Assembly (NCBI GenBank): GCA_025465155.1
Contig: JAODNJ010000339.1
Coordinates: 1 to 33,289 of the forward strand
Source: Frankiales bacterium
GTDB lineage: Bacteria; Actinomycetota; Actinomycetes; Mycobacteriales; Geodermatophilaceae
DNA: 33,289 bases
Direction: 5' to 3'
Each line of letters begins with the position of its first letter. Within the stretch, counting starts at the first letter, position 1. A model generated the notes under the pieces. It did not search any database, was not told the DNA's origin, and was given only the letters and a program-made list of their open reading frames with translations. Both the position numbers and the translations under genes were made by a program. Shown piece by piece: positions 3,509-19,664 of this stretch.

Positions 3509-4404
3509 CGCAGCGCCCCTCCGATCTTTGCGAGCACGGCGTCGGCAAGCAGGCTGAGCGCGATCGCCGTCGCGGCCAAGACAGCTCCCGGCAGGAGGGT
3601 GATCCACCAGGCTGTCTGCAGCACCGTGGCGCCGCCGTACATGATCACGCCCCATTCGGGGGCCGGCGGCTGAATGCCCGCCCCGAGGAACGGCAGTGAC
3701 GCCGTGGTCACGACGGCGAGAATCGCGTCGGTAACCATGTAGGCGCCGACGGCGGAGACCACATTGGGCAGCAGATGCCGGACGACGATCCGCGACGAGG
3801 AAAACCCAAGAACCCGGGCTGCGGTGACGAAGTCCCGCTGTCGCAGACTCAGGGTCTGACCGCGGGCGAGCCGCGCGTAGACGGCCCAGTCGGTCACGAT
3901 GATGGCCGCCAGCAGGGAGATGAGTCCCGGCGGCAACGACCACACCGTGGCCTCGGTGCCGACGAGCAGCACGATCGCGAGAACCAGCACCATGAACGGG
4001 AACGCGATGATCGCATCGGCGGTGCGCATCACGACCGCATCCACCCAGCGCCCGCTCGAGGCGGCGACCACACCTAGAAGTGATCCGATCGCCGCCGAGA
4101 CCAACACTGCAATGGCGATGACCGCGAGGTCCACCCGCCCGCCGGCAAACGTGCGCACGAACACATCCCGGCCCACGGTGTCGGTGCCGAAGGGGTGGGC
4201 CAGCGAAGGCCCCTGCAAGGCCGGAGCGACGATGGCCTCCGCGGAGTAGTGCCAGAAGATCGGCACGAAAATGCACGCCAGGGCGATTAGAGCGAGAAGG
4301 CAACCGCCCACAGTCGCAGCCAGGCCGGGACGCTTCGCAGCAACTCGGCCGGTCGGGATACGCAGCCGCCGGAACTCCGGGCTGGCCCCGGCTACGGCCG
4401 TCAT
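3505..4404 (-). CDS. Peptide-type ABC importer permease (DppC/OppC-like)
   Basis: Inner-membrane permease of 299 aa. It has the DppC N-terminal layout: a cytoplasmic tail, a first transmembrane segment (about residues 25-50), then the periplasm-side PFGTDTVGRDVF motif characteristic of DppC. The BPD_transp_1 core follows with about five more hydrophobic helices. The EAA loop that contacts the ATPases is visible as RDFVTAARVLGFSSSRIVVRH. The start at 4404 (MTAVAGASPE) was chosen because its ATG overlaps the upstream permease stop by 4 nt. The same frame remains open to 4842 without similarity to anything. Confidence 0.93.
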   Translation of the reverse strand: MTAVAGASPEFRRLRIPTGRVAAKRPGLAATVGGCLLALIALACIFVPIFWHYSAEAIVAPALQGPSLAHPFGTDTVGRDVFVRTFAGGRVDLAVIAIAVLVSAAIGSLLGVVAASSGRWVDAVVMRTADAIIAFPFMVLVLAIVLLVGTEATVWSLPPGLISLLAAIIVTDWAVYARLARGQTLSLRQRDFVTAARVLGFSSSRIVVRHLLPNVVSAVGAYMVTDAILAVVTTASLPFLGAGIQPPAPEWGVIMYGGATVLQTAWWITLLPGAVLAATAIALSLLADAVLAKIGGALR

Positions 4405-5402
4405 GACTGCACCCGGGTGCGCGGGTCGGCGAGCTGATAGGCGACGTCCGACAGCGAGTTGACCAGGATGACCAGGACGGCGGTGACGAGCGCCGCGCCC
4501 TGCACCACCGGGTAGTCCCGAGCGGACACCGCGGACACGAGCGCCGATCCGATGCCGGGCAGGTTGAAGACGGCCTCGATGATGACCGCTCCTCCGATCA
4601 GGGCGCCCATGTTGTAGCCGAGCAGGCTGATGACCGGGAGCAGGCTGTTGGGGATCACGTGCCTGAACACCAGGGTTCGCGTTGGCAACCCGCGGGAGAT
4701 GGCCGCCTCGACGAAGTCCTGACCGAGCGTCTCTTGCACGCTCTGCCGTGCCGCTCGCGCGATGACCGGTGCCAGATACGCCGACAGTGCGATGCTGGGC
4801 AGCCAGAGATATCGCACGTCGTCCAGGGCCCCGGTCCCCCATCCGCCCGCGGGGGCGGCGCCCGTTTGGAGCGCGAACAGGAGTAGCAGGAAACCGATCA
4901 GAAACGGCGGCGTGGCGAGCAGCACCATCATGATCGCCCGCAGCCCCGAGTCCACGACTCCGCTTCGACTGACCCCGCTGGTCACGCCCATCGCCAGACC
5001 GGCCGCGACCGAGATAACGGCCGTGCAGCCGATCACCGCCAGGGTCACCCGCAACGCCGGGAAGACCACCGAGGTGACCGGAAGGCTGCCGGCGACCAGC
5101 GACGAGCCGAGGTCGCCGGTGAGGGCGTGCTGAAGGAACGTCCAGAACTGCGTGAGAATCGACCCATTCAGGTGCAGTTGCTTGTGCAGTTCGGCGATCG
5201 CCTCGGGGGTCGCGCGCTGGCCGAGGATGCTGCGGGCTGGGTCACCCGGAACGAGGTGGACGAGCAGGAAGGTGATGACGACGACGGCGAACGTCACCAC
5301 CACCATCTGACCCAGCCGGACCCCGACCTGTGCGATCACCCCTCGGCGACGACGACGCGGACGTTGCGTGACTGGCGGCGCCGGCGCGGCCTGGACCGCC
5401 AT
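4401..5402 (-). CDS. Peptide-type ABC importer permease (DppB/OppB-like)
   Basis: Inner-membrane permease of 333 aa with the DppB hallmark after the first transmembrane helix (FLLVHLVPGDPA), a large external loop and the BPD_transp_1 core with EAA loop QDFVEAAISRGLPTRTLVFRH. The start is the ATG at 5402 (MAVQAAPAPP), because a strong ribosome binding site, AAGGAGGTG, lies a few bases upstream. The frame extends to 5510 but that part lies in the gap and the end of the binding-protein gene. An Arg-rich stretch (RPRRRRR) precedes the first membrane helix, consistent with a cytoplasmic N terminus. The gap to the binding-protein gene is 56 nt. Confidence 0.94.
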   Translation of the reverse strand: MAVQAAPAPPVTQRPRRRRRGVIAQVGVRLGQMVVVTFAVVVITFLLVHLVPGDPARSILGQRATPEAIAELHKQLHLNGSILTQFWTFLQHALTGDLGSSLVAGSLPVTSVVFPALRVTLAVIGCTAVISVAAGLAMGVTSGVSRSGVVDSGLRAIMMVLLATPPFLIGFLLLLFALQTGAAPAGGWGTGALDDVRYLWLPSIALSAYLAPVIARAARQSVQETLGQDFVEAAISRGLPTRTLVFRHVIPNSLLPVISLLGYNMGALIGGAVIIEAVFNLPGIGSALVSAVSARDYPVVQGAALVTAVLVILVNSLSDVAYQLADPRTRVQS

Positions 5403-5458
5403 CCTCACACCTCCTTCCATAACGGACCCCGCACTGTTTCCCGCGCTCACGCCGGGCC

Positions 5459-7099
5459 TCAGGGAGCCGTGGCGACGTGCAGGTAGCTCGACGGCTCGAA
5501 GGTGACCCACTTGGTCAGGCTGCTCTTCTCACCGTTCACGAACGCGTACTCCAGCAGCGGGGCGAACGGCAGATCCTTGCCGTACAGCTCGTTGATCTTC
5601 CGCATCGCGGCGGATCGGGCCGCACCCCCTTGGGCATAGACGGTGTGGATGAGTGCATCCATCTGCTTCGAGCTGTATCCGGAGTACAGCGCGTTGATCC
5701 CGCCGTCGGACTGCAGTCCGTAGGTCAGCATGATGTCCGGCCTGTTGGCGTAGTCGTACAGAGCGCCGATCTCCATCTGGTACTTGCCGCTGGCTTCGTT
5801 GGCCCCGGCAATGGAGGGCTCGGTCAGCTGCAGCGACACGTGGATGCCGATGGCCGACAGCTGCTGCGCCACGATGGAGGCCATGTCGCTCGACTGGCCG
5901 GTGCGCACCATCAGCGACAGGTTGCAGCCGTGCGCGCACGGGGTGCCCTGCAGAAGCTCCCGCGCCTTCGCCGTGTCGACGGCGGTGGGCAGGACGTTCT
6001 CATGATCGGAGAATTGAGAGCCCTCGAAGCCGTACAGCGCGGGGGCCTTGCCCGCCCAGACCGTCTGGCTCAGCTGCTTGCGGTCGATCGCCAGCGAGAT
6101 CGCCTGCCGGACGTTGACGTCCGACAGCGGCGAGCCACGGTCGTTCATGTAGAGGTAGTAGCCGCCGTAGCCGGGGGTGACGACCCCGGTGACGTTCCCG
6201 GTCAGCTGGTTGAGCGTGTTCTCAGGCAGCGTCAGCGCCATGTCGATGGCGCCGCTCTTGAGCTGCACGATGCGGGTGTTGACGTCGTTGATGTACCGGA
6301 AGTCCAGCTCTTTGACCGCCGGCTTCGGCCCGTAGTAGTGCGGATTGACCGTGAGGACGGTCGCCGCGTCCGAGACCGAGAACGACTGGATCTGGTAAGG
6401 CCCCGCGGAGACCGGCTTCAGGTAGAAGTTCTTGGCATCCGCCACGCCGGCGGCCGGCGACACGGTCCCGATTTCGCCGTCCGCGAGGAGCGAGAGCAGC
6501 GAAGGCTGCGGATGCGCCAGTTTCATCACCACGGTCGTGTCGTTCGGGGCGGTGATGCTCTTCCAGTTCGAGACCACTCCGGCGTTGGCGTTGGCCTTGT
6601 CGTTCACTTCGCGCTCGTAGGTCGCGGCCACGTCCGAGGCATGCAGACTGCTTCCGTCGGAGAAGGTCAACCCCGGGCGGAGGGTGAACGTGTACGTCAG
6701 CCCGTCGGCCGAGGTGCTCCACTTGCTCGCCAACCCCGGCTCCACCTTCGAGGCATCCGCGTTGAACTGGGTCAGCGTTCCGCCCACCAGGTTCAGAATC
6801 TGAAGTGGGGATTCGAGCACGGCTTGGTCTGGGTCGAGGTTGTGGAAGACCTCGCTCATGCCGATGACGAATCGAGCGGGCGGCGTCGAGCTCTGGCCTA
6901 CCGACTGGCCGCCGTTGGACGCGCCCCCACAGGCCGTAACCAATGCGATCGACGCCGTGGCCACCGCCGCGAGCACGAGGCGGCCGCGACTGCGGCCCGT
7001 CCTGGGAACGTCGATCGCGGACGGGGAGGACGACGTGCCGACCAGCGACATCGAACGCTTCGACGTGCCTGGACGGTTCGAGCGGGCGGTATCCGGCAT
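5459..7099 (-). CDS. Peptide-type ABC importer substrate-binding lipoprotein (SBP_bac_5, DppA-like)
   Basis: Extracytoplasmic solute-binding protein of family 5 (about 546 aa). It has a basic N region, a hydrophobic segment (LVLAAVATASIALVTA) and a lipobox VTAC with acylated Cys at about residue 57. The mature protein follows, with family-typical blocks LDPDQAVLESPLQILNLVGG, FTLRPGLTFSDGS, VRQAISLAIDRKQL and a TPCA...ARELLQ region. Substrate capture outside the membrane and delivery to the two permeases is the known family role. The start at 7099 is preferred: the alternative GTG at 7171 lies inside the operator and downstream of the -10 box by only about 10 nt from the other side, so it is unlikely to be a translated start. 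It is the first gene of the importer operon and is driven by the promoter at 7155-7200. Confidence 0.93.
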   Translation of the reverse strand: MPDTARSNRPGTSKRSMSLVGTSSSPSAIDVPRTGRSRGRLVLAAVATASIALVTACGGASNGGQSVGQSSTPPARFVIGMSEVFHNLDPDQAVLESPLQILNLVGGTLTQFNADASKVEPGLASKWSTSADGLTYTFTLRPGLTFSDGSSLHASDVAATYEREVNDKANANAGVVSNWKSITAPNDTTVVMKLAHPQPSLLSLLADGEIGTVSPAAGVADAKNFYLKPVSAGPYQIQSFSVSDAATVLTVNPHYYGPKPAVKELDFRYINDVNTRIVQLKSGAIDMALTLPENTLNQLTGNVTGVVTPGYGGYYLYMNDRGSPLSDVNVRQAISLAIDRKQLSQTVWAGKAPALYGFEGSQFSDHENVLPTAVDTAKARELLQGTPCAHGCNLSLMVRTGQSSDMASIVAQQLSAIGIHVSLQLTEPSIAGANEASGKYQMEIGALYDYANRPDIMLTYGLQSDGGINALYSGYSSKQMDALIHTVYAQGGAARSAAMRKINELYGKDLPFAPLLEYAFVNGEKSSLTKWVTFEPSSYLHVATAP

Positions 7100-7154
7100 C
7101 CCAAGGACCCTTCCATCGCGCGGCCGACCCGGAGCCAACCGCCGTTGGGGACGG

Positions 7155-7200
7155 ATGCTAGGCAGCTTCACTATTCTGTGTCAATGTTCACATAGCGAAG
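7155..7200 (-). promoter_or_regulatory. Importer operon promoter with operator site A
   Basis: On the minus strand: operator arm CTTCGCTAT (7192-7200), a 17-nt spacer holding -35 box TTGACA (7179-7184), second arm ATAGTGAAG (7166-7174), then -10 box TAGCAT (7155-7160), 18 nt after the -35. The arms form an inverted repeat with 8 of 9 bases matched. The same architecture recurs at 15636-15681 and 15720-15767. A protein on these arms would cover the -35 element, so repression is likely (inference). Confidence 0.8.
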
Positions 7201-8255: not shown

Positions 8256-9062
8256 TCAGCCGACGCGTTTCTCGTCGGCGGCCAACGCCCCCCGCTCCCC
8301 CGACAGCACCGACGTCACCTCGGAGGCCGCAGCCATCACCGTGTCGCGGTACAGGTCGAAATGCGCTTCGAACCGCGGCTTGGCGCTGGCGACAGTGATG
8401 GCCCCGAGCACTCGCCCGGTCGCATTGAAGTAGGGGGCAGCAACGCAACACACCCCGAGTGCGAATTCTTCGAGGTCGGTCGCGTAGTGAGCGATGCGCA
8501 CATCGCCCAAGGCGGCCTCCAGCGCGGCGCGTTCTGTGATGGTGTGCGTCGTGATGGGGTCAAGAACGGAGCGATCCAACCATGCGTTCCGCGATTCCGG
8601 CGGCAGAAAAGCCAACACCGCCTTGCCCGAAGCCCGAGAATGCGGCGTTCCACTCAGCCCCACGGTCAGTCCGGTGACACGAAGGGTGTACGTGCCGTCG
8701 ACGACATGCCTGATGATCATGTCGTTCCCGTCCCACTCGCTGGCGAAGGCCGTTTCGCCAACCTCCCGGGCAATGCGCTGAAGAATGAGTTCGAGTTCCT
8801 CGTCAAAGTTGCGAATGCCGGTGAAGGCCGCGCTGAGGCGTACGACGCCGGAATCCAAGCGGAGCTTTCGGGCGTTGTCCCGCCGAAGATATCCGCGCCC
8901 TTCCAGGGTCTTTACCAGGTGATGACAGGTTGATATGTTCAGGCCCAGGCGGTCGGCGGCCTCCGCGACTGACAGTGTGCCGGAGCTCATGGCGACCAGC
9001 TCCAGCAACGCAAAGGCCCGATCGACTGTTTGAAGCGTGGAACGCGGCTTTTCGCTGTCCAT
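8256..9062 (-). CDS. IclR-family transcriptional regulator
   Basis: Regulator of 268 aa. The N-terminal winged helix-turn-helix (about residues 10-65) contains the IclR-type block TLSVAEAADRLGLNISTCHHLVKTL and RGYLRRD. The C-terminal effector-binding domain (about 80-260) includes TLRVTGLTVGLSGTPHSRASGKAVLAFLP and GVCCVAAPYFNATGRVLGAITVASA. The start at 9062 (MDSEKPRSTL) is chosen for its GAGAGG ribosome binding site; the frame is open to 9137. IclR proteins bind small catabolic effectors and usually control nearby operons. It is the only regulator within the transport/catabolic genes apart from the Lrp protein paired with alanine dehydrogenase, so it is the best candidate to bind operators A, B and C. 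Confidence 0.93.
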   Translation of the reverse strand: MDSEKPRSTLQTVDRAFALLELVAMSSGTLSVAEAADRLGLNISTCHHLVKTLEGRGYLRRDNARKLRLDSGVVRLSAAFTGIRNFDEELELILQRIAREVGETAFASEWDGNDMIIRHVVDGTYTLRVTGLTVGLSGTPHSRASGKAVLAFLPPESRNAWLDRSVLDPITTHTITERAALEAALGDVRIAHYATDLEEFALGVCCVAAPYFNATGRVLGAITVASAKPRFEAHFDLYRDTVMAAASEVTSVLSGERGALAADEKRVG

Positions 9063-9240
9063 CGAACTGCCTCTCGGAGGGGGCCCCGCACCCAACTTGC
9101 CCATGGCGATCGCCCGTGCGACCGCGAGGACACGCACGTGCCCTTGAGCTCATTATGACATACGCGCAAGCAGCTAGGAGTGCACAATTGTCTGCTCGTG
9201 CCGGCCAGCGAGCGGCCCGCCACCAGCGGGTCTCGCGCCG

Positions 9241-10140
9241 ATGACCGCCACCCCGCGAGTCGTCGCCTCGGGATTCACCTTTCTCGAGGGTCCCCGCTGG
9301 CATCGTGGGGCGCTCTATGTCTCGGATTTCCACAGTCGAGGCGTATACGCGGTGACCGCGGGCTCCGCCGTTGCCCAGCTCCACGTCGTCCCGGGGACCC
9401 CCTCCGGGCTCGGCTTCTCCCCCGACGATCGCCTCATGGTGGTCTCGATGACTGACAACTCGGTGCTCATCGCGGACCCGTCGTCGGGGGAACTCGCCCT
9501 CCACGCCGACCTGCGGCACCTCCAGGCGGGACCCGCGAACGACATGCTCGTCGACGGTCGGGGTCGTGCCTATATCGGTTGCGATGGCTTCAATGAAGAC
9601 GCCGGCGAGCCGATCCGGTCGGCCCCGCTGGTCTTCGTCGACACGGCCGGGAATACCTCGATAGTCGCGGATGACCTGTTCTACCCGAACGGGATGGCGC
9701 TCAGTCCGGATGGGCAGACGATGTATGTAGCCGAAACGCTTGCCGCCCGGGTATCCGCGTTTCGTGTTACGCCTAGTGGGGCCTTGGAGGATCGCAGAGT
9801 ATGGGCGACATTCGATGCCGCGCCAGCACTCGGCAGCATTGCCGACGCTATCGAGGAACTGGCCATACTGCCCGACGGATTGGCTTTGGACGTCAACGGG
9901 AATTTGTGGGTTGCCGACGCGAAGGGGTGCGGAGTATCCCTCTTCTCTGAGGGGGGAGATGTGATCGATCGGGTGGCCACTGGCGAACTCGCCGTGTACG
10001 CGGTGGCACTCGGCGGCGACGATCTACGCACTCTCTTCATGTGCGCCGCCATGCCCCTATCGGCCAGGAAACCCGGCGATGTGCCGCACGCGGAACTGCT
10101 GGCCTGCCGCGTTTCTACCCCCGGAGTGCCCACATATTGA
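9241..10140 (+). CDS. SMP-30/gluconolactonase/LRE family hydrolase
   Basis: Six-bladed beta-propeller hydrolase of 299 aa. The family's divalent-metal ligands can be placed: Glu in FLEGPRW (about residue 15), Asn in GPANDML (about 100), Asn in YPNGMALSPDG (about 149) and Asp in LPDGLALD (about 216). Members hydrolyse sugar lactones and related cyclic esters in the cytoplasm; here it may open a lactone produced by an SDR or by the FAD oxidase branch. It is divergent from the IclR gene (178-bp gap) and converges with the ceramidase-like gene. The gap contains CATTATG near 9151, which resembles one operator half-site only, so control by the same regulator is uncertain. Confidence 0.9.
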   Translation: MTATPRVVASGFTFLEGPRWHRGALYVSDFHSRGVYAVTAGSAVAQLHVVPGTPSGLGFSPDDRLMVVSMTDNSVLIADPSSGELALHADLRHLQAGPANDMLVDGRGRAYIGCDGFNEDAGEPIRSAPLVFVDTAGNTSIVADDLFYPNGMALSPDGQTMYVAETLAARVSAFRVTPSGALEDRRVWATFDAAPALGSIADAIEELAILPDGLALDVNGNLWVADAKGCGVSLFSEGGDVIDRVATGELAVYAVALGGDDLRTLFMCAAMPLSARKPGDVPHAELLACRVSTPGVPTY

Positions 10141-10196: not shown

Positions 10197-11588
10197 TCAT
10201 TTATTCCCGACCGCATTGATCAATGACGTCGCGGCACGCACGAATACCTGACCCTCGCCGTCGGCCACCTGGGTATTGGTGATGCCATATGCCCAGCGCG
10301 CCTTGTCCTGATCGAGCTGATCTTCCAGCGTGTATCCCGCGATCTGACCAAGGCTTCCGTCCGGAGGGAAATAGCCGAGGTAATCGTCGCAATAGCCCAG
10401 CACGAGCGTCTGATCTCGACCGTCCTGACTGCGGGCCACGTCGAAGGCCAGATCGGAGAAGAGCTCGAACGGCGTGGCGAGAATCGTCAAGGAGCCCAGG
10501 CGCACCGCCCGCAGGGTTGTCTCCAACGGTGCCCCGCCGTGGCGCAGCAGGCCCTCGAACTCCGTGAGGGCGGCATCGACGTAGAAGTCGGGCATCGTCT
10601 GCGCCGAGTTCACCGTGTGCAGGGAACACGGCCACACCGGTGGGAGAGCCGCTACATCCGGCGTCGGCGCCGCCTCGCGGGCGAGCCGGATCGCCTCGGC
10701 CGACCAGGGGATCTGCCGGCGCTGCAGGGTGAGCGGTGCCGCTCCCCAGTCCAGGTCGACGTTCGCCGAGGTTCGGATCCGGGCTCGAGCGGCGACCGCT
10801 GCGCCGGCGACCTCGGCGCCGAACTGCTCCATTGCGGCGAAGCCCATGGGTTGCGGGTCTGGGTTACCGAACCAGTAGTCGAACGGAGCCATGTCGCCGG
10901 CCGCGCCCTGGAGGAACATCGCGCGGCCGCCTGCCAGGGCACCCTCGAGATGGCGCCGGATCGAGCCGGGGAAATCCGCCGTCCAGTCGGTGGTGTGGCC
11001 GCCGACGGTCAGCGCGTGGCAGGCCAAGGACAGGACGGTCAGGATCGGTGAGCCGTCCTCGGCATCGATGCGGATCACCGTGACCCGGTCGTCGACAGGG
11101 TGCTCAGGCCAGACGCGGTTGACTGCCAGGCCAGCGACGGCGACGCAGCCGATGCCGATCCTCGCCGGCCGAGTCGTCCGGTGCGCTGCCTCGATGCAGG
11201 CGACCACCCGATCGATCACGGACTCGCCCCAGTTCCGCAGGGGGCTGCCCTCGGGTGCGGGGTCCAACGGCCAGGCCGGCGCCGAATGGTTGTGGGACGC
11301 GTTGACGATGATGGCGTCTGCAGGAATACCGGTCCGCTGCGACGCGCGGCCTCGGACCGCGGCCGAGAAGGCCGCATCCACGGCGACCAGATCAAGGCTG
11401 ACCAAGGCCAGTTGGGTTCCCGATCGCTCGATGACGAGCGCATCGGCCATCAGTTCGTCGTTGACGCCGGTGGCCGTGGAGCTCCGCAGCCGCCAGGTGC
11501 CCAGGACACCCAACGGCGGGGTGATCACCGACCGCGCGGTGCCCACGTGCACAGACGCGCTCGCGGACGGCGAGAGGCTGTCACTCAT
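10197..11588 (-). CDS. Neutral/alkaline ceramidase-like amidohydrolase
   Basis: Protein of 463 aa matching the N-terminal catalytic domain of neutral/alkaline non-lysosomal ceramidases. Visible are the metal-binding HNH in NASHNHSAP (His99, His101), ACHALTVGG with a further His, FLQGAAGDMAP, and near the end GYCDDYLGYFP, equivalent to the GYxxxYxGYxP block of that family. There is no signal peptide and no C-terminal Ig-like domain, unlike secreted bacterial ceramidases, so it probably acts in the cytoplasm on a small amide. The start is the ATG at 11588 (MSDSLSPS), overlapping the upstream SDR stop by 8 nt; the frame is open to 11684. Last gene of the oxidase operon. Substrate unknown; sphingolipid cleavage should not be assumed. 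Confidence 0.8.
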   Translation of the reverse strand: MSDSLSPSASASVHVGTARSVITPPLGVLGTWRLRSSTATGVNDELMADALVIERSGTQLALVSLDLVAVDAAFSAAVRGRASQRTGIPADAIIVNASHNHSAPAWPLDPAPEGSPLRNWGESVIDRVVACIEAAHRTTRPARIGIGCVAVAGLAVNRVWPEHPVDDRVTVIRIDAEDGSPILTVLSLACHALTVGGHTTDWTADFPGSIRRHLEGALAGGRAMFLQGAAGDMAPFDYWFGNPDPQPMGFAAMEQFGAEVAGAAVAARARIRTSANVDLDWGAAPLTLQRRQIPWSAEAIRLAREAAPTPDVAALPPVWPCSLHTVNSAQTMPDFYVDAALTEFEGLLRHGGAPLETTLRAVRLGSLTILATPFELFSDLAFDVARSQDGRDQTLVLGYCDDYLGYFPPDGSLGQIAGYTLEDQLDQDKARWAYGITNTQVADGEGQVFVRAATSLINAVGNK

Positions 11589-12345
11589 CGACCCATCCGT
11601 TCGCCATCCACCCACCGTCGACGACGAAGAAGGAGCCCGTCGTGAAGCCGGACAGCTCGGGGTCCGCCAGGAATGCCACCGCATTGGCCACCTCGTTGGG
11701 CCGTCCGAGCCGCCCCACCGGAGTGCCCTGGAGGTAGAGATCCTCGCGGGAGGAGCCTTCCTCGATGGCGCGCGCCACCAGGTCCGTCTTGATCACCCCC
11801 GGACCGATCGCGTTCACCCTGACCCCGTGCGGCGCCCATTCGACGGCGAGCACCTCGGTCATGCTCACGACGGCGGCTTTGGACGCGCAGTAGGCGAGCC
11901 GCCGGGGCCATGAGGACCGAGCGTTGATCGACGCGATGTTGACGATCGCACCCGCGCCCGCCTCGATCATCTGCCGGCCGTAGACCTGCGAGCAGTGGAA
12001 CACCCCCGTCGTGTTGACGGCGAGCGTGCGGTCCCACTCGTCGACGGAGAACGATTCGGACGGGCCGATCGGGTTGATGCCGGCGTTGTTCACCAGGACG
12101 TCCACGCTGGCGAATTCGTCGAAGACCGCCGCGGCGGCACGCTCGACGGAGTTCCGGTCCGACACATCACACTGGATCCCGAGGGCGGCATCGCCCAGCT
12201 CATCGGCCGCGGCGGCCACCGTGGCGGCATCCACGTCCAGAACCGCCACTCGGGCGCCGTCGGCCAGAAATCGCTCGGCGATCGCGCGACCGAGGCCACG
12301 CGCACCTCCGGTGACCACACAGGTGCGGCCGTCGAAGCCGCTCAT
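11581..12345 (-). CDS. Short-chain dehydrogenase/reductase (classical SDR)
   Basis: Classical SDR of 254 aa. It shows TGGARGLG (residues 12-19), an acidic residue ending beta-2 (VLDVD, Asp37) that favours NAD(H), NNAG (86-89), active-site Ser139 in NIASI, and Tyr152/Lys156 in YCASK. The VNAIGPGVIKTD block and FFVVDGGW end are typical. The start at 12345 (MSGFDGRT) overlaps the RidA-VOC stop by 4 nt (ATGA), so the two are translationally coupled; the frame is open upstream to 12543 but that overlaps the neighbour. It is the second SDR of the cluster, in the oxidase operon. A dehydrogenase step on a hydroxylated intermediate is inferred. Confidence 0.93.
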   Translation of the reverse strand: MSGFDGRTCVVTGGARGLGRAIAERFLADGARVAVLDVDAATVAAAADELGDAALGIQCDVSDRNSVERAAAAVFDEFASVDVLVNNAGINPIGPSESFSVDEWDRTLAVNTTGVFHCSQVYGRQMIEAGAGAIVNIASINARSSWPRRLAYCASKAAVVSMTEVLAVEWAPHGVRVNAIGPGVIKTDLVARAIEEGSSREDLYLQGTPVGRLGRPNEVANAVAFLADPELSGFTTGSFFVVDGGWMANGWVDE

Positions 12346-13244
12346 CGCGCGTCGCTCCGAGCCTGGAAGAGTTCGATCGTGATGCCATCGGGGTCTCGGA
12401 AGTAGAGTCCCCGCCCGCCGCGATTGGCGCCGGTGTCGACGAGCACCGGCTCGGGCACCTCGACTCCCGCCTGCTTCACCGAGGTCAGCACGGCATCGAT
12501 GTCCGAGACACCGAAGCAGACGTGGGAGATCCCACGGTCCCACGGACGGCGCGGCGCGACCTGGTCGTCGACTCCGAGGTACTCGAACAGTTCCAGTCGG
12601 TGCCCGCTGCCGGCAAAGCCCAACTGGGCCATCTTCACGTGCGCGCCGGGAAGACCCACGATCTCCGCGAGATACCCGCCCTGCTTCTCCTGCACGTAAT
12701 CCACCTGCATCCCGAGGGCGTCTCGGTAGAACGCGAGCGAGGCATCCAACGAGGCCACCGTGAAGCTGGTGTGGTCGAACCTGGTGGGAGCCGGTGTCGA
12801 GATCGCCTGCGTCTCGCTGGTCGCAGCCGATCCGGCGACGGCAGTGGCCTCGATCTCGACCAGCAGGTCGGGGTGCAGCAGCGCGGCACCCCCCACGCAG
12901 CTGCTCACCGGGACGGTGGCGCCGAACACTTCGTCGTGAGCCTGGCCCGCCTGACGCCAGGTGGATATGTCGGTCACGAACAGGCGAGTGCGCACCACGT
13001 CGGCCAAGGTCGCGCCGAGCTGGACCAACGACTCACTGATGATCTCGAGGCAGGCTTTGACCTGCCCGGCGACATCCCCGATCGCCACGACCTGACCGTC
13101 GGGGCCCACGGCGGTCGTTCCGCTCACCTCGATGAGGTCACCGACGCGAATCGCTCGCGAGTAGCGCATCGACGTCCCCCAGGGGGCACGGTTAGGGACC
13201 ACCTGGCGAGAGGGACCCGGGGAGGCGGCGTCGTGGTCAGTCAT
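12342..13244 (-). CDS. RidA (YjgF/YER057c/UK114)-like domain fused to a VOC/glyoxalase domain
   Basis: A 300-aa two-domain protein. Residues ~18-137 form a Rid fold (LIEVSGTTAVGPDG, VVRTRLFVTDIS, LLVEIEATAVA). Residues ~155-295 form a VOC (vicinal oxygen chelate) domain with candidate metal ligands His158, Glu221, His241 and Glu291 (FDHTSFTV, LELFEY, ISHVCFG, ITIELFQ). In canonical RidA an Arg in the PARS-type motif holds the imine substrate; here the matching stretch is PVSSCVG, so that Arg is absent and standard imine deaminase activity is doubtful. The protein sits directly behind an FAD oxidase of a family that releases imines, which still fits handling of a reactive product. ATG at 13244 overlaps the upstream hydrolase stop by 8 nt. 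Fusion architecture is seen; its job is inferred. Confidence 0.88.
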   Translation of the reverse strand: MTDHDAASPGPSRQVVPNRAPWGTSMRYSRAIRVGDLIEVSGTTAVGPDGQVVAIGDVAGQVKACLEIISESLVQLGATLADVVRTRLFVTDISTWRQAGQAHDEVFGATVPVSSCVGGAALLHPDLLVEIEATAVAGSAATSETQAISTPAPTRFDHTSFTVASLDASLAFYRDALGMQVDYVQEKQGGYLAEIVGLPGAHVKMAQLGFAGSGHRLELFEYLGVDDQVAPRRPWDRGISHVCFGVSDIDAVLTSVKQAGVEVPEPVLVDTGANRGGRGLYFRDPDGITIELFQARSDAR

Positions 13245-14220
13245 GGGGTTCTATCTCCAGGAGTCGTCGAGGGTTGTCGTACATGAGTGTTCGAACGTCG
13301 TCGTCGGTGAATCCCCGAGCTGCCAGACGATCGACGAACTGGGACGCGATGTAGTCGTAGCCGTTGCCCCCGTACAGCTGCAGGTAGGACTTGCGGCAGA
13401 CGTCCTGACTGAGCAAGACCTGCCCGATGAAGCCCCCGCTGCACAGTTCGACGAGGTGGTCGATCATCCGGTCGGCCAGCCCGGTGGGACTCGTCCGCGG
13501 GCCCCAAGTCGGTTCGCCGAGATTGTCGAATTGGACGAAGGCCCCGCGTTCGGCGATCTGGCGGTGGTAGTCCAGCCGCATCCACGCGTCGCAATGTCCG
13601 ATGGCCACGCGCGAGGGATCCACGCCCTCGCTCTCGAGGAGATCGAGGTGGACGATCCCCACGGGGCGACCGCAGCGGACCGTGTTCCGCAGGTCCGCCA
13701 CCGAGTGGGTGGAGACCCCGAGTCCGGTGAGCGCGGCAGCCCGGCCCGCGGCGCGGAACACCCGCTCCTCCTGGGCCGTGACGTAACCCTTGTGCGAACC
13801 GATCTCCCCGACGATGCCGGGCCGGATACGTTCCGGGCCCACACCGTGAGAGATCTCCTCGACGAGGATCTCGGTGAGACGCTCGACGGGCCAGGGATCG
13901 ACCTCGTTGCCGTAGTAGGGCTCGCGGTACCAGCCGCAGCCCATGACGATGTTGAGGCCGGTCCCCGTGGAGATCTGCTGCAGTCCGACGGGGTCGCGTC
14001 CGATTCCCGGGACGGTCAGGTCGACGAGCGTCCCTCGATCGACTGAGTCGGCGAATGCGGTCAGCTCGCGCCGGGCCACCACGGGGTCGTCGAGGATTCC
14101 GTCGAAGGTGTGCCGTTCGGCTGGCCACTCGAAATCGATGAACACGTGCTCGTGCGGGAGGACGAGCCCGAGGTCGTCCCCGCTGATGTCGCCGTTGACC
14201 GTCCGAACGATCGAAGTCAT
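13237..14220 (-). CDS. Phosphotriesterase-family (PTE-like) metal-dependent hydrolase
   Basis: Amidohydrolase-superfamily TIM barrel of 327 aa, in the PTE/phosphotriesterase-related group. Ligands visible in order: HEH at the end of beta-1 (His23, His25), Glu139 in GEIG at the position of the bridging carboxylate (Lys in classical PTE, Glu in several relatives), His172 in STHS, His209 in GHCD and Asp273 in SQDV. Bacterial relatives are often lactonases or esterases; true organophosphate activity is promiscuous and should not be assumed. Ribosome binding site GGGAG precedes the ATG. It lies 61 bp after the oxidase gene and overlaps the RidA-VOC gene by 8 nt, so it belongs to the same operon. 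Confidence 0.92.
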   Translation of the reverse strand: MTSIVRTVNGDISGDDLGLVLPHEHVFIDFEWPAERHTFDGILDDPVVARRELTAFADSVDRGTLVDLTVPGIGRDPVGLQQISTGTGLNIVMGCGWYREPYYGNEVDPWPVERLTEILVEEISHGVGPERIRPGIVGEIGSHKGYVTAQEERVFRAAGRAAALTGLGVSTHSVADLRNTVRCGRPVGIVHLDLLESEGVDPSRVAIGHCDAWMRLDYHRQIAERGAFVQFDNLGEPTWGPRTSPTGLADRMIDHLVELCSGGFIGQVLLSQDVCRKSYLQLYGGNGYDYIASQFVDRLAARGFTDDDVRTLMYDNPRRLLEIEPHD

Positions 14221-14281: not shown

Positions 14282-15586
14282 TCAACCCATCACCGTGCCG
14301 GAGCTGTCTGCGTTCAGCGCCCGCTTGCGGGAGAACGTACCGAGGCCGATCTCGAGTCCGGTGTGCTCTCCGACGATGTGCACCGGATCGCCGTCGTGGT
14401 CATGGCCACCTTCGACGCGGTCGATGAGCGCGGCCATCATCCGGCCGACGACGGGAGCATTCTTGAACTGGTTGCCGCTCGTTCCAATGGCCACGTAGAA
14501 GCCGTCGAGCTCGGTCCGGTCATAGATCGGAGTCCAGTCCTCGGTGACGTCGTAGACGCCGGCGATGCCCTTGGGTGAGTTCGGGACGGCGAGCGTGGGG
14601 AACCTGCGCGCGGCGCGCATCACCTGCGCCTCGAATTGCCGCACCCTCGGCCGGGGGTCGCACTGGTCGGGATCCTCGATCCATTCCAGCGGGTCGCACG
14701 CGGGCTCGGTGCCGCCCACGTACATCCCCCCGGGTGCCGCCCTGATGTAGGTGCCGAGGTCGAGGTCGGCGACCGAGGGGCCGAGCCGACCGTTCTCGTT
14801 GTACCCCGGGGGCGCCGGGACGTAGTGCACTTCCTGGCGCATGGGTCGGACGCTCACCGAGAAATCGGCGCCGACGCCGGCCATCTCGTTGAGCTTGCCG
14901 GACCACGGTCCGGCCGCGTTGACCACGACCGGCGCCGCGATCTCGGAGCCGTCGGACAGCACGACCCCGCTCACGCGGCCGTCCTGCCGAAGCACCTCCG
15001 TGACCTGCCGGTTGTAGAACAGCGAGGCGCCGGCCCGCTCGGCGGCGGACGCGAGGTTCTGCGCGGCCAACTGCGGGTCATCGACGAAGCCGGCTTCCGG
15101 CATGAAGACGCCGCCGAGACTCTCCGCGGCGTCCTCGAAGAATGCCTCGTCGTCGATGGCCTTCGGCGGCCAGTACTGGCCGGCGTCGATGCTCGGCACG
15201 CGCGCCTGCAGGGCCGCGGCGTCCCATCGCTCGAAGGGGATGCCCGCGCGCTCGAACAGGCCGATCAGCCGATCCGTGGGCGCGACCGGCACGTCGAGCA
15301 TCACCATGCCTGTCCGGTGGAAGGTCGCGAGGCCGGCCTCGTCGTCACCACCAAGATGATCGGCCCAGTTCTCCCAGCAGTGCTTCGCTTCCCACGACGC
15401 TGCGACGCTGTCCCACCGGGAGTAGTTGAACCGGATGATCGCGCTCGAGGCGCTCGTCGACCCCTGGCCGGCCCCGCCAGCCTTGTCGACGACCACCACA
15501 TCGAGGTGCTGCTTGGCCAACTCCAGCGCGATCGATGCTCCGATCACACCGGCGCCGACCACGACGGCGTCCGCGGATATCCGCAC
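14282..15586 (-). CDS. FAD-dependent amine/amino acid oxidase (DAO/sarcosine oxidase-type)
   Basis: Flavoprotein of 434 aa in the DAO fold. The N-terminal dinucleotide motif GAGVIG is at residues 11-16, with an acidic residue ending beta-2 (VVVVDK, Asp34). The substrate domain has GSTSASSAIIRFNYS, typical of sarcosine/dimethylglycine oxidase-type enzymes. The C-terminal flavin block is GFYVAIGTSGNQFKNAPVVGRMMA. Members oxidise C-N bonds, yielding imines or aldehydes plus H2O2 or reduced carrier. The start is GTG at 15586 (VRISADAVVVG), backed by GGGAGG about 8 nt upstream; the frame is open to 15637, inside the promoter. First gene of a five-gene operon driven by the promoter with operator B. 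Confidence 0.92.
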   Translation of the reverse strand: MRISADAVVVGAGVIGASIALELAKQHLDVVVVDKAGGAGQGSTSASSAIIRFNYSRWDSVAASWEAKHCWENWADHLGGDDEAGLATFHRTGMVMLDVPVAPTDRLIGLFERAGIPFERWDAAALQARVPSIDAGQYWPPKAIDDEAFFEDAAESLGGVFMPEAGFVDDPQLAAQNLASAAERAGASLFYNRQVTEVLRQDGRVSGVVLSDGSEIAAPVVVNAAGPWSGKLNEMAGVGADFSVSVRPMRQEVHYVPAPPGYNENGRLGPSVADLDLGTYIRAAPGGMYVGGTEPACDPLEWIEDPDQCDPRPRVRQFEAQVMRAARRFPTLAVPNSPKGIAGVYDVTEDWTPIYDRTELDGFYVAIGTSGNQFKNAPVVGRMMAALIDRVEGGHDHDGDPVHIVGEHTGLEIGLGTFSRKRALNADSSGTVMG

Positions 15587-15635
15587 GGGTGGCCTCCCTG
15601 AGGTCCTGTAGAGCGACCACGTCCGGGTCGAGCGC

Positions 15636-15681
15636 ACAGTACAAAACTTGGTTATTCTGTGTCAACGTTCACATAATGAAG
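15636..15681 (-). promoter_or_regulatory. Oxidase operon promoter with operator site B
   Basis: On the minus strand: arm CTTCATTAT (15673-15681), a 17-nt spacer holding -35 TTGACA (15660-15665), arm ATAACCAAG (15647-15655), then -10 TACTGT (15636-15641), 18 nt after the -35. The arms match at 7 of 9 paired positions. The spacer differs from that of site A by a single base. The GTG start of the oxidase lies about 50 nt downstream of the -10 box. Confidence 0.8.
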
Positions 15682-15767: not shown

Positions 15768-15850
15768 GAGAACCGTCGACAGCAGTGCGCATCGCGCCCG
15801 TCGGCACAGGTCAGCCGATGCCTGCGGCGGACAGAACACCGAGGAGCATC

Positions 15851-17896
15851 ATGACGTTCGGCCTTTCATCTCCGGCGACGACGCGTGCGGCCGGTCTCCC
15901 GGGTGACCTTCGCTCGGCCGGGCTGCCGCGCAGCCGCGACGCTGTCGATCAGCTCCGCGGCATGCTGTTCATCCGGCGGTTCGAGGAGCGCGTCCTCGCG
16001 CTTCGTCAGGCCGAGCAGATAAGCGGCTCCATTCACCTCTGCGTGGGCCAGGAGAGCGCGCCCATCGGCGTTCTGTCGGTGCTCGACGGGCGCGACCGGG
16101 TCCTGTCTACCTATCGGGGTCACGGGTGGGCGCTTGCCTCTGGTGTGCCACCCCAGAAGATCCTCGACGAGATCATGGGTCGCGCCTCGGGCACGAACGG
16201 CGGACGCGGTGGCTCCGCCTACCTCTCCTCTCCGGAACATGGCTTCCTGGGCGAGAACAGCATCGTCGCCGCCGGCCTGCCGATCGCCAACGGCGTCGCC
16301 ATGGGGCTCCAGGAGCGGGGAGAAGGCGGCGTCGTCGTCGTCTCCTTCGGCGACGGGGCCACGAACCAGGGCGCCGCGCACGAGGCCCTGCTGTTCGCGG
16401 TCTTCCGTTCACTGCCGGTCGTCTTCATCTGCGAGAACAACCGCTGGTCGGAGATGACCCCCATCTCGGCAACCGTGCCCGGGGTGGAACTGCACGAGCG
16501 GGCCGCGGCCTACGGGATGGCGGCTCGACGGATCGACGGATCCGATGTCGGCGCAGTAACGGAGTCGGCCGCCTGGGCGGTCGAGCGCGCGCGTAGCGGC
16601 CAGGGCCCCACGTTCCTCGAGATCGACGTCCCCCGGATTCTCGGCCACTACAACGCGGACATCGAGCACTACCGGTCGGCGGCGGACCGCCAGGAGCACC
16701 TGCAGCGGGACCCGATCTCCGCGCTGACTGCGCGCCTCATCGACGAGGGAACCCTGAGCGAGTCGGACCTGGCGCTGCTCGAGAAGGATGTGCTGCAGGC
16801 GGTCTCAGCGATCGAGGACGCGGCGCTGGCCGCCGACTGGCCGGACCCGACGACGGTCCGTGACCACGTCGTCGCGTCCCCTACTCTCCCGGCGCCGGTC
16901 TCCCCCGCGTACGACGGGGCACCCATGAGGTATGGCATCGCCGCCAACCACGCTCTGGCGCGTGAGCTGGCGGACCGGCCCGAGGTGGTGATGTTCGGTG
17001 AGGACATCGCCATCCCCGGCGGGACGTTCGGCGTCACCCGCAACCTGCAAAAGCAGTTCGGTGCACGGCGGGTGTTCGACACACCCATCTCGGAGGCGGC
17101 GATTCTGGGCGCGGCCGTCGGGGCCAGCCTGGAAGGCCTCCGGCCGGTCGTGGAGATCATGTGGAGCGACTTCCTGTTCGTCGCCTTCGACCAGGTCATC
17201 AACCAGGCCGCCAACGTGCGGTATCTGTCGCGCGGGACGATGACGGCCCCGCTCGTCATCCGCATGCAGCAGGGCATCACGCCCGGCTCGTGCGCCCAGC
17301 ACTCGCAGAGCATCGAGGCACTCCTCGCGCACATCCCCGGACTCAAGGTCGGGATGCCCTCGACGCCTCAGGACGCCTACTCAATGCTGCGGGCCGCGAT
17401 CGCGGATCCGGACCCGGTCGTGATCATCGAGTCCCGCGCGCTGTACCAGGATGCCGGCGCGGTGGACCTCGACGCCGAGATGGAACCCGTCGGAGGTGCC
17501 CGACTACGCCGTCCCGGTACCGATGTCCTCATCGTCACCTGGGGAGGCATCACCAAGCTCGCGCTCGAGGCGGCAGAGAGCCTGGCGGCCCAGTACATCG
17601 ACGCCGCCGTCCTGGAACTCCGCTGGCTGAACCCGCTCGACGAGGGGGCCCTGGCTGAGGCCGTGGCGGCCGCGGGCGGCAAGGTGCTCATCGTTCACGA
17701 AGCGAACGTCACCGGCGGATTCGGGGCCGAGGTCAGCGCGCGTCTGGCGGAGAAGCACCTCGACCTCATCGACGGGCCGATCCGGCGCATCGGCCTGCCC
17801 GATGTACGGGTGCCGGCATCGCCCGGGCTGCAGGCGGCCCTGCTGCCGACCGCCGAGACCATCGCGGCGGCCGCGCGGAACCTCGCCGAACACTGA
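15851..17896 (+). CDS. Fused alpha/beta E1 component of a 2-oxoacid dehydrogenase complex (thiamine diphosphate-dependent)
   Basis: A 681-aa single chain joins the usual E1 alpha (about residues 30-320) and E1 beta (about 359-681) subunits. Alpha carries the ThDP motif from GDG (167-169) to NN (196-197), plus the SIHLCVGQE and TYRGHGW blocks. Beta starts MRYGIAANHAL and has VMFGEDI, GGTFGVTRNLQ, the FDTPISEAAI block and C-terminal VHEANVTGGFGAEV. It decarboxylates a 2-oxoacid and passes the acyl group to a lipoyl E2. No E2 or E3 gene is in the window, so partners must lie elsewhere. The start is ATG at 15851, with GAGGAG at 15841-15846; an earlier in-frame start at 15785 lacks a comparable site. 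Pyruvate, acetoin or branched-chain oxoacids are all possible substrates. It is under operator C. Confidence 0.93.
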   Translation: MTFGLSSPATTRAAGLPGDLRSAGLPRSRDAVDQLRGMLFIRRFEERVLALRQAEQISGSIHLCVGQESAPIGVLSVLDGRDRVLSTYRGHGWALASGVPPQKILDEIMGRASGTNGGRGGSAYLSSPEHGFLGENSIVAAGLPIANGVAMGLQERGEGGVVVVSFGDGATNQGAAHEALLFAVFRSLPVVFICENNRWSEMTPISATVPGVELHERAAAYGMAARRIDGSDVGAVTESAAWAVERARSGQGPTFLEIDVPRILGHYNADIEHYRSAADRQEHLQRDPISALTARLIDEGTLSESDLALLEKDVLQAVSAIEDAALAADWPDPTTVRDHVVASPTLPAPVSPAYDGAPMRYGIAANHALARELADRPEVVMFGEDIAIPGGTFGVTRNLQKQFGARRVFDTPISEAAILGAAVGASLEGLRPVVEIMWSDFLFVAFDQVINQAANVRYLSRGTMTAPLVIRMQQGITPGSCAQHSQSIEALLAHIPGLKVGMPSTPQDAYSMLRAAIADPDPVVIIESRALYQDAGAVDLDAEMEPVGGARLRRPGTDVLIVTWGGITKLALEAAESLAAQYIDAAVLELRWLNPLDEGALAEAVAAAGGKVLIVHEANVTGGFGAEVSARLAEKHLDLIDGPIRRIGLPDVRVPASPGLQAALLPTAETIAAAARNLAEH

Positions 17897-17904
17897 CTCC
17901 TTAC

Positions 17905-17939
17905 CCGGCTCCGGCGTCATCCCATGAGGCCGGAGCCGG
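17905..17939. terminator. Inverted repeat between convergent E1 and Lrp genes
   Basis: CCGGCTCCGG and CCGGAGCCGG form a perfect 10-bp stem with a 15-nt loop. It lies 9 bp after the E1 stop and spans the Lrp stop codon (17917-17919). There is no T-run, as is common in actinomycetes. A shared bidirectional terminator is the likely role. Confidence 0.65.
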
Positions 17940-18432
17940 TGGCGATGTGCTCGAAGATCAGGTTGGTCTCCGTGCTCGCCACGTCGCGGGAGGCGCTGAG
18001 GTTCTCGACGACGAAGTCACGGAGATCGTCCGGTGACGCGGCCGCCACGTGCAGCTGGAAGTCGTTGACGCCGGCGAGGAAGAAGACGTTCAGCACGCCC
18101 GGCAAGGCTGCGAACTGTCGGGCGAACGACCCGATACGGGCGCGGGCGTGCGCCTGCAGACGCACGGACACGACGGCCTGAAGCGGTTTACCCAACGCGG
18201 CGGGGACCAGCTCGGCGTGAAAGCCCCGGATGACGCCGGCGTCCTGCAGGCGGCGCACCCGCATCAGACAGGTCGACGGCGCCACCCCAACCTGAGCCGC
18301 CAGCGTGTTGTTGGGGATGCGGGCGTCCGCGGCGAGGATGCGGAGGATCTCCGCGTCGATCGCGTCGAGGGTGACCTCGCCTCGCACGGACTCGCGAATC
18401 TTCTTCGTCGCCGGGGTGCCGGGCACTGTCAT
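17917..18432 (-). CDS. Lrp/AsnC-family regulator (AldR-like by position)
   Basis: Feast/famine regulator of about 171 aa. The N-terminal AsnC-type helix-turn-helix (about residues 21-80) reads LDAIDAEILRILAADARIPNN, then LAAQVGVAPSTCLMRVRRL and GVIRGF. The C-terminal RAM effector domain (about 85-165) shows VSVRLQAHARARIGSFARQF and VLNVFFLAGVNDFQLHV. The start at 18432 (MTVPGTPATKK) is a choice; the frame is open to 18522 with no better site. It is divergent from alanine dehydrogenase, the arrangement known for AldR-ald in mycobacteria, where AldR controls ald in response to alanine. Regulation of its own promoter and of ald is therefore inferred from family and context. Confidence 0.92.
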   Translation of the reverse strand: MTVPGTPATKKIRESVRGEVTLDAIDAEILRILAADARIPNNTLAAQVGVAPSTCLMRVRRLQDAGVIRGFHAELVPAALGKPLQAVVSVRLQAHARARIGSFARQFAALPGVLNVFFLAGVNDFQLHVAAASPDDLRDFVVENLSASRDVASTETNLIFEHIATGSGLMG

Positions 18433-18542
18433 GGCGGAATTATCGCACATGTTTCCATCGGCGCACCGAATTCCGTTCGCGTTTGGCCCGTATGACCAGA
18501 ATAAAATGGCAGGCTGAGCCATATCAACCGAATGGAGGAACG

Positions 18543-19664
18543 TTGAACATCGGCATCCCCGCAGAGATCAAGAACCACGAATACCGGGTGGCCATCACAC
18601 CCTCCGGCGTCCAGGAACTCGTGCTCAACGGGCACCAGGTGTTCATCGAAGCCGAGGCGGGCCTCGGCTCGGCCATCACCGACGCCGAGTATCGAGTCGC
18701 CGGCGCACAGGTCCTTCCTGCCGCGGACGACGTCTGGGACGCCGGCGATCTGATCCTCAAGGTCAAGGAGCCGATCGCCGAGGAGTACTCCCGGATGCGG
18801 GAAGGGCAGGTGCTGTTCACCTACCTCCACCTCGCCGCAGACAAGCGCCTGACCGATGAGCTGATCGCCCGGAAGGTCACCGCGATCGCGTACGAGACGG
18901 TTCAGGCTGCCAACGGCGCACTCCCCTTGCTGGCACCGATGTCCGAGGTTGCCGGCCGGCTAGCCCCGCAGGTCGGTGCAGCGACATTGATGAAGGCCAA
19001 TGGCGGCCGCGGCGTACTCATGGGTGGCGTTCCCGGCGTGCACGGCGCCAAGGTCGTCGTGATCGGCGCCGGCGTCTCGGGCCTAAATGCCGCCAACATC
19101 GCGACCGGCATGCAGGCCGAGGTCCTTCTGCTCGACCTCGACGTCAACCGTCTCCGCCTGGTCGACCAGGTCTACCGGGGCCAGCTGCAGACCATCACCA
19201 GCAACACGTACGAGATCGAGCGCGCGGTCACCAACGCGGACCTCGTCATCGGCGCCGTCCTGGTCCCGGGCGCGAAGGCGCCCACCCTGGTGACGAATGA
19301 GCTCGTCTCCCGGATGAAGCCGGGCTCTGTGCTCGTGGACATCTCCATCGATCAGGGCGGGTGCTTCGAGGACTCGCGTCCGACGACGCACGCCGACCCG
19401 ACGTACACGGTGCACAACTCGGTCTTCTACTGCGTGGCGAACATGCCGGGCGCGGTGCCGAACACCTCAACTCGCGCACTCACAAACGTGACGCTGCCCT
19501 ACACGGTCGCACTGGCGAACAAGGGGTGGCGCTCGGCGTTCACCAGCGATGCCAGCCTCGCCCGAGGCGTGAACACCTACGCCGGCCAGTTGGTCAACGT
19601 CGCCGTCGGTGAGGCCACCGGGCACGCCGTGGTTTGCCTCGAGGACGTCCTGACCGGCCACTGA
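18543..19664 (+). CDS. ald: L-alanine dehydrogenase
   Basis: NAD-dependent reversible oxidative deamination of L-alanine to pyruvate and ammonia. At 373 aa it matches the ~371-aa family length. It shows the N-terminal block IGIPAEIKNHEYRVAITPSGV with substrate-binding Arg15, catalytic Lys74 in KVKEP and His96 in YLHLA, then the Rossmann motif VIGAGVSG (about 173-180) and the C-terminal SIDQGGCFEDSRPTTH block. The start is TTG at 18543 with GGAGG at 18534-18538; the frame opens earlier (18483) but those residues do not belong to the family. It delivers pyruvate that the neighbouring E1 could use. Regulation by the divergent Lrp protein is likely. Confidence 0.96.
   Translation: MNIGIPAEIKNHEYRVAITPSGVQELVLNGHQVFIEAEAGLGSAITDAEYRVAGAQVLPAADDVWDAGDLILKVKEPIAEEYSRMREGQVLFTYLHLAADKRLTDELIARKVTAIAYETVQAANGALPLLAPMSEVAGRLAPQVGAATLMKANGGRGVLMGGVPGVHGAKVVVIGAGVSGLNAANIATGMQAEVLLLDLDVNRLRLVDQVYRGQLQTITSNTYEIERAVTNADLVIGAVLVPGAKAPTLVTNELVSRMKPGSVLVDISIDQGGCFEDSRPTTHADPTYTVHNSVFYCVANMPGAVPNTSTRALTNVTLPYTVALANKGWRSAFTSDASLARGVNTYAGQLVNVAVGEATGHAVVCLEDVLTGH

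Follow-up and report, generated by a model that had tools for sequence, protein, structure and literature searches.

The 33,289-nucleotide stretch of DNA analyzed here (contig JAODNJ010000339.1 of the Frankiales bacterium assembly GCA_025465155.1, hereafter the window) carries on its minus strand an open reading frame (ORF) that encodes a Rid domain and a VOC domain in a single polypeptide. Pfam placed both domains, PF01042 and PF00903, in one frame with scores far beyond chance, the Rid part being assigned to the PF01042 superfamily by a profile score above the gathering cut-off (Table 1). No ATG, GTG or TTG was found among codons 119-160 of the ORF, so the VOC part should be made only as a portion of the fusion. 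In addition, the G+C content at third codon positions (GC3) lay between 0.77 and 0.90 in each of ten 30-codon blocks across the ORF, i.e., the codon pattern is continuous over the junction. The Rid-VOC protein is a new architecture built from known families, from which we infer its function below.

Table 1. Positions of the Rid-VOC fusion, its domains and key residues, the surrounding genes of the window, and two related fusions found elsewhere.
Feature	Position	Strand	Remarks
Rid-VOC fusion ORF	12342-13244	minus	300 aa; start ATG at 13244
Rid domain, PF01042 Ribonuc_L-PSP	12837-13172	minus	residues 25-136; E 9.1e-25; 87.4 bits vs cut-off 27.3
Inter-domain linker	12783-12836	minus	residues 137-154; 18 residues, Ala/Ser/Thr/Pro-rich, without start codon
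VOC domain, PF00903 Glyoxalase	12369-12782	minus	residues 155-292; E 2.9e-19; 70.1 bits vs cut-off 20.6
Arg87 (RidA Thr75 position)	12984-12986	minus	invariant, 46/46 homologues
Ser114 (RidA Arg105 position)	12903-12905	minus	from alignment; T/A/S/N in 46/46 homologues
Metal ligand His158	12771-12773	minus	predicted from homologue alignment
Metal ligand Glu218	12591-12593	minus	predicted from homologue alignment
Metal ligand His241	12522-12524	minus	predicted from homologue alignment
Metal ligand Glu291	12372-12374	minus	predicted from homologue alignment
SDR2, short-chain dehydrogenase	11581-12345	minus	Pfam; start overlaps Rid-VOC stop (ATGA)
Ceramidase-like protein	10197-11588	minus	PF04734 4.6e-6, under family cut-off; probable start ATG 11588 overlaps SDR2 stop
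PTE, phosphotriesterase-family protein	13237-14220	minus	PF02126 8e-55; end overlaps Rid-VOC start by 8 nt
DAO, FAD-dependent amine oxidase-family gene	14282-15637	minus	PF01266 2e-59
SMP-30/gluconolactonase-like lactonase	9241-10140	plus	PF08450 1.5e-44
Fused E1 alpha-beta thiamine-dependent dehydrogenase	15785-17896	plus	PF00676, PF02779, PF02780
IclR-family regulator	8256-9137	minus	PF01614, PF09339
Oligopeptide-type ABC transporter genes (binding protein, permeases, ATPases)	1552-7171	minus	PF00496, PF00528, PF00005, PF08352
Aldo/keto reductase (AKR)-Rid fusions	L138 3936-5405; L157 1469-2908		alphaproteobacterial plasmids; both adjoin branched-chain amino-acid transporter permease genes

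In order to place the Rid domain, we aligned it to Escherichia coli RidA, whose residue numbers serve as the reference below. Ser114, within the local motif VPVSSCVG, corresponds to Arg105 of RidA, while Y28, C116 and E130 correspond to Y17, C107 and E120. Homologues scoring above 35 bits were then drawn from the collected loci. Removal of the copies belonging to the window, of E. coli RidA and of two distant genes from Sphingomonas left 46. Most of these stem from genomes that share the genus, family, order or phylum of the window; they are not independent of one another, and one of them is an AKR-fused domain from Rhizobium. At the Arg105 position they carry Thr (27), Ala (8), Ser (7) or Asn (4) and never Arg, which makes the absence of this arginine a trait of the clade rather than a loss in the fusion. 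At the position of RidA Thr75, by contrast, both the window protein (R87) and all 46 homologues have Arg. The residues Y28, R85, T86, R87, W96, H103, E130 and E132 are kept in the window copy.

The nearest solved relative of the Rid domain was Rv2704 of Mycobacterium tuberculosis (PDB 3i7t), matched at 1.3e-27 with the whole protein as query and at 8.9e-46 when a profile built from 23 Rid sequences was used; canonical RidA structures scored below it. With S114 in place of the cleft Arg105, the domain falls outside the imine deaminases of the RidA subfamily; it has instead the features of an Rv2704-like, Arg-less clade, i.e., no Arg105, a VVRTR strand, and the cleft Tyr and Glu. We take Rv2704 to be placed in the CDD family YjgF_YER057c_UK114_like_6 (Rid6), and by sequence the window domain probably belongs to the same Rv2704-like Rid6 clade. 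In the sections of the survey by Niehaus et al. (2015; PMC4433059) drawn on here, Rid4-Rid7 are described as being without the arginine, which is variable in Rid5 and Rid6, some 10% of RidA proteins are said to carry Ser there, and the roles of Rid4-Rid7 are given as completely unknown as of 2015.

The residues at the trimer salt-bridge positions, R85 and E132, are kept in the window domain, a statement that concerns positions only. In the part of the plant RidA study used here, the inter-subunit salt bridge is K136-E182 (PMC4960622); the putative correspondence of R85/E132 to this pair is our own mapping, made through an alignment of human RidA. R87 sits two residues from R85 on one predicted strand, and from this spacing the two side chains probably face the same way.

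Unfused genes of this Rid type were also seen. One of them (genome G388, locus L127) adjoins a HisA/HisF-type histidine-biosynthesis gene (8681-9472), a hint that the unfused gene may serve a housekeeping function. Scans of viral contigs for further Rid sequences gave a single record with a usable Rid, an Arg-less gene (L153, 1462-1857) that is 54% identical to the window domain in its best segment; a second viral-contig record that fit the pattern coded for no recognizable Rid.

For the VOC domain, the predicted metal ligands are well conserved among 59 homologues: His158 aligns with His in 58, Glu218 with Glu in 58 and Glu291 with Glu in 57, whereas the position of His241 is more variable (His 40, Glu 18, Arg 1). 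An H-E-H-E metal ligand pattern is typical of glyoxalase I (GlxI), and with H158, E218, H241 and E291 the domain belongs to the glyoxalase I type of the VOC superfamily. A full-length AlphaFold model was good for the VOC part (84-96 over ten-residue blocks, except for 70 and 59 at residues 221-240) and poor for Rid. Foldseek searches with the VOC model returned 1ss4 (TMt 0.85) and, among glyoxalase-family structures, the E. coli nickel-containing GlxI 1f9z (TMt 0.80). By the curated NCBIfam cut-offs, the domain is neither a lactoylglutathione lyase proper (glyox_I, 41.3 bits vs 120; GloA, 26.6 vs 165) nor a methylmalonyl-CoA epimerase (37.1 bits vs 114.95).

A preliminary description of this ORF had claimed an unusual joining of Rid and VOC domains, intact VOC metal ligands and a replaced Rid arginine. 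The single polypeptide was borne out by the two Pfam domains in one frame, and the four VOC ligands are intact. As for the arginine, a serine does stand in its place, but nothing was lost in this protein, the residue being absent throughout the clade.

That the architecture is unusual was upheld by searches for a second example. Full-length searches were made in four overlapping draws of genomes (98, 397, 396 and 394), taken from relatives of the window and from its order, phylum and class, with cut-offs of 1e-30, 1e-25 and 1e-33 for the 397-, 396- and 394-genome draws and with only the best few candidates per genome scored. None of the four draws held a Rid-VOC fusion other than the window's own copy, which for the 98-genome draw refers to the matches listed. 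Peptide patterns run against a collection of 84,980 species gave 70 loci, which yielded relatives of the VOC domain and, at one locus, a Rid gene standing by itself, and likewise no second fusion, with the limit that patterns from a single protein reach close relatives only. Among plasmids no Rid-VOC fusion was found, and in the sole record with 80% query coverage RidA and gloA are neighboring but separate genes. Finally, literature titles and abstract openings described no fusion of Rid/YjgF with a glyoxalase or VOC domain.

Several candidates were rejected on inspection. In Sphingomonas paeninsulae RidA and gloA are adjacent yet separate genes, both Rid genes being only 26% identical, and in Robiginitomaculum (L071) VOC and Rid are separate genes with Rid cut by the contig end. 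A match over residues 25-214 in genome G037 was a Rid gene read past a stop, with no VOC in that frame. Two long alphaproteobacterial spans (L024, 7956-9433; L069, 7887-9456) proved to hold three tandem VOC genes rather than fusions.

On the minus strand of the window the fusion lies in a run of genes, in the order DAO, PTE, Rid-VOC, SDR2 and ceramidase-like gene, and a second short-chain dehydrogenase (SDR) gene is also near it. We presume that the run is co-transcribed, and the operon probably breaks down an amine-containing compound. We found no full counterpart of it in the genomes and plasmids searched. Apart from the source genome itself, a set of 246 genomes of the phylum (245 others) gave no PTE match at 1e-60, and a set of 26 genomes of the genus (25 others) gave no DAO match at 1e-60; a 56% DAO match did occur on a Pseudonocardia plasmid, with no Rid or VOC match near it. 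The ceramidase-like protein had one match (39%) among 295 other genomes at 1e-40, in a locus (L145) with no Rid or VOC match at 1e-5. Further along the window, a divergent pair at 17917-19664 comprises an Lrp/AsnC-type regulator and an alanine dehydrogenase-like gene, whose ORFs as listed overlap at their starts.

The G+C content of the window (1-33289) is 66.4%, compared with 74.7% for the contig bearing the genome's own second Rid gene and 75-77% for loci of the same genus. This contrast is weakened by other loci of the same genome, which lie at 68-71%. The source genome is assembled in 612 contigs. What the window holds may be an accessory island, or the contig may have been binned wrongly, which leaves the host uncertain; the G+C-rich relatives and the closest Rid matches would point to an actinobacterium. 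A phage-type integrase at 14-1352 on the plus strand extends over two overlapping frames (SAM-like N-terminal part, 14-1087; catalytic part, 630-1352); it looks broken, and an acquired island may have its edge here.

We next consider the company kept by the VOC domain outside the fusion. Four stand-alone orthologues at 50-55% identity were recovered under the cut-offs used, from genomes G615 (locus L123), G838 (L150), G987 (L151) and G885 (L152). An SDR gene lies directly downstream of VOC in three of the four orthologues of at least 50% identity, as it does in the window, and the VOC stop overlaps the SDR start through ATGA in the window, L123 and L151 and through GTGA in L152. Pfam scans of three of these loci showed sugar-type transporter genes and an enolase-superfamily gene in L150 and L151 but not in L152, lactonase-like and E1 genes in L150, and E1 genes in L152; sugar-type permeases in G615 were read by eye only. 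In the 50 of the 70 pattern-search loci with a VOC above 30 bits, 8 SDR matches (6 on the same strand) fell within 2.5 kb, compared with 1 in a similar outer length, and for E1 the numbers were 7 (in four loci) and 3.

The recurrence of an SDR gene right after VOC points more towards a metal-dependent isomerization or epimerization of a keto or hydroxy acid than towards chemistry performed directly on what an oxidase makes. The preliminary description had suggested that the Rid fold serves for binding or trimerization and that the VOC domain does the chemistry on an oxidase product. An amine oxidase-family gene is indeed present, since DAO belongs to the same gene run, and the kept bridge positions are in keeping with the role given to Rid. 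VOC chemistry on an oxidase product, on the other hand, is weakened by SDR being the recurring partner and by the lack of any DAO homologue at 1e-3 in the four VOC-orthologue loci; direct delivery of the oxidase product to VOC may occur, but the orthologues do not suggest it.

From the two domains, the metal ligands, the clade residues, the gene overlaps and the VOC-SDR pairing, all of them read from sequence, we tentatively propose that the fusion is a bifunctional or scaffolded catabolic enzyme, a reading to which we give slightly less than an even chance and whose chemistry, substrate, assembly and Rid activity are our proposals. The H-E-H-E site of the VOC domain would bind a keto or hydroxy acid through its vicinal oxygens, and a Glu of the ligand sphere would move a proton by way of a metal-bound enediolate to yield an isomer or epimer. 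This product would pass to SDR2, encoded by the overlapping next gene, for oxidation or reduction. The Rid domain would trimerize and so gather three copies of the fusion, and its inter-subunit cleft (Y28, E130 and the clade-invariant R87) may bind, or slowly hydrolyze, an imine or ketone from the neighboring FAD amine-oxidase-like enzyme. VOC metal sites of the glyoxalase-I type form across a dimer. With a dimer-forming VOC and a trimer-forming Rid in one chain, the fusion is predicted to assemble as a closed 3x2 hexamer.

A number of observations weigh against this proposal. At 6 of 36 clade-conserved positions the window Rid domain is changed, and its Rid site may be degraded; when each other homologue was left out in turn, the median was 1 and the highest value 8. 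A Rid-only model built from three sequences reached a pLDDT of just 58, and the Rid models are too weak to locate R87 or to judge the pocket. The best Foldseek match of the Rid-only model was 3i7t (TM 0.49-0.58, 10.5 A rmsd), which supports the fold family only. In G838 the SDR gene lies about 1.1 kb upstream of VOC and a transporter ATPase gene lies downstream. At 1e-3 no homologue of Rid, PTE or DAO scored in any of the four VOC-orthologue loci, so nothing there backs a joint Rid-VOC function. SDR and E1 genes are common, and the neighborhood counts are therefore suggestive only. Lastly, the portions of the literature consulted contained no biochemistry for this VOC subfamily or Rid clade.

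Our probabilities for the alternatives overlap with that for the bifunctional or scaffolded enzyme and with one another. The alternative that survives best, although we consider it doubtful, is that Rid is a working imine hydrolase in which R87 replaces R105, the DAO imine being converted to a ketone that passes to the fused VOC and on to SDR2. The position of DAO in the same gene run, the invariance of R87 where R105 is absent from all homologues, the retention of the RidA-cleft Tyr and Glu, and the closeness of R87 to the bridge position R85 would all fit such a relay, and a 2020 paper (PMC7688666) predicts, as a prediction only, that a Rid6 protein of a nicotine cluster serves to remove an imine. 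Against it stand the lack of DAO in the orthologue loci and the location of R87 in the trimer cleft, which is argued from sequence only.

Somewhat less likely again is the view first suggested, that Rid is a pure trimerization scaffold with a dead cleft and VOC alone is catalytic. It would account for the missing Arg105, the kept trimer-bridge positions and the changed conserved positions, among them a G27R substitution adjoining the conserved cleft Tyr (Y28). Yet Y28, R87, W96, H103, E130 and E132 are more than a scaffold alone should need, and three of the 46 homologues, including the AKR-fused Rhizobium domain, deviate more than the window copy and one deviates equally. With the cleft Tyr, Glu and R85/E132 kept and six positions changed, the Rid domain reads as divergent but not plainly dead.

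We think it very unlikely that the VOC domain is a ring-cleaving dioxygenase instead of an isomerase; L-DOPA dioxygenase structures do rank high in the Foldseek search, but the four-ligand set is that of glyoxalase I, and in extradiol dioxygenases the ligands are two His and one Glu. Least probable of all is an assembly artefact or chance merger through loss of a stop codon between two ordinary genes, for although the fusion is seen in one genome only and that genome is a many-contig assembly, the continuous GC3, the linker without an internal start and the overlap of the ORF with both neighboring genes argue against it.

A bolder extension, which we also regard as unlikely, treats the fusion as the Rosetta stone by which the Arg-less Rid clade can be read: the invariant R87 and E130 of the neighboring subunit would act on imines or ketones, and Rid would be joined to different carbonyl-processing enzymes, VOC here and AKR elsewhere, so that the unstable imine, once converted to a ketone, moves on inside a single 3x2 assembly. 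If true, a Rid group to which no function has been ascribed would gain one. More generally, the natural fusion ties the Arg-less Rid type to a metal isomerase-type domain and so hints at a role for this branch. Its place in one run with genes for a dehydrogenase and an amine oxidase-like enzyme provides concrete substrate classes to test, and the trimer-by-dimer geometry is a clear structural prediction.

When compared with known systems, the Rid domain stands closest to Rv2704 and related Rid proteins, being approximately 38-53% identical to aligned relatives and 40% to 3i7t. It shares with them the lack of Arg at the RidA-105 position and the VVRTR strand, the second Arg of which occurs in all 46 homologues and in 3i7t, and it differs in its fusion to VOC and in the six altered clade-conserved positions. 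With canonical RidA (E. coli RidA/TdcF, human UK114) it has in common the fold family, the cleft Tyr and Glu, the Cys107 equivalent and the trimer-bridge charge pair, but it is without the Arg105 that RidA needs for imine hydrolysis and has R87 where RidA has Thr75. The VOC domain shares its fold and the GlxI ligand pattern with the glyoxalase I (E. coli GloA, 1f9z)/methylmalonyl-CoA epimerase group, whereas it is only about 24% identical to 1f9z and, in common with all four stand-alone orthologues (5/5), has a QEKxGGY motif that sets it apart from glyoxalase I and the epimerase. Pfam also identified AKR and Rid in one protein on plasmids of Rhizobium rhizoryzae and Acuticoccus, and the two AKR-Rid fusions, both lying beside branched-chain transporter genes, may trace to one event. 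They resemble the window protein in joining a similar Rid domain to a carbonyl-metabolizing enzyme, the Rhizobium domain (the one in which this was seen) also being without the Arg and having the VRTR strand, and they differ in that Rid is C-terminal and the partner is AKR rather than VOC. Similar Rid domains thus occur joined to two kinds of carbonyl-metabolizing enzyme.
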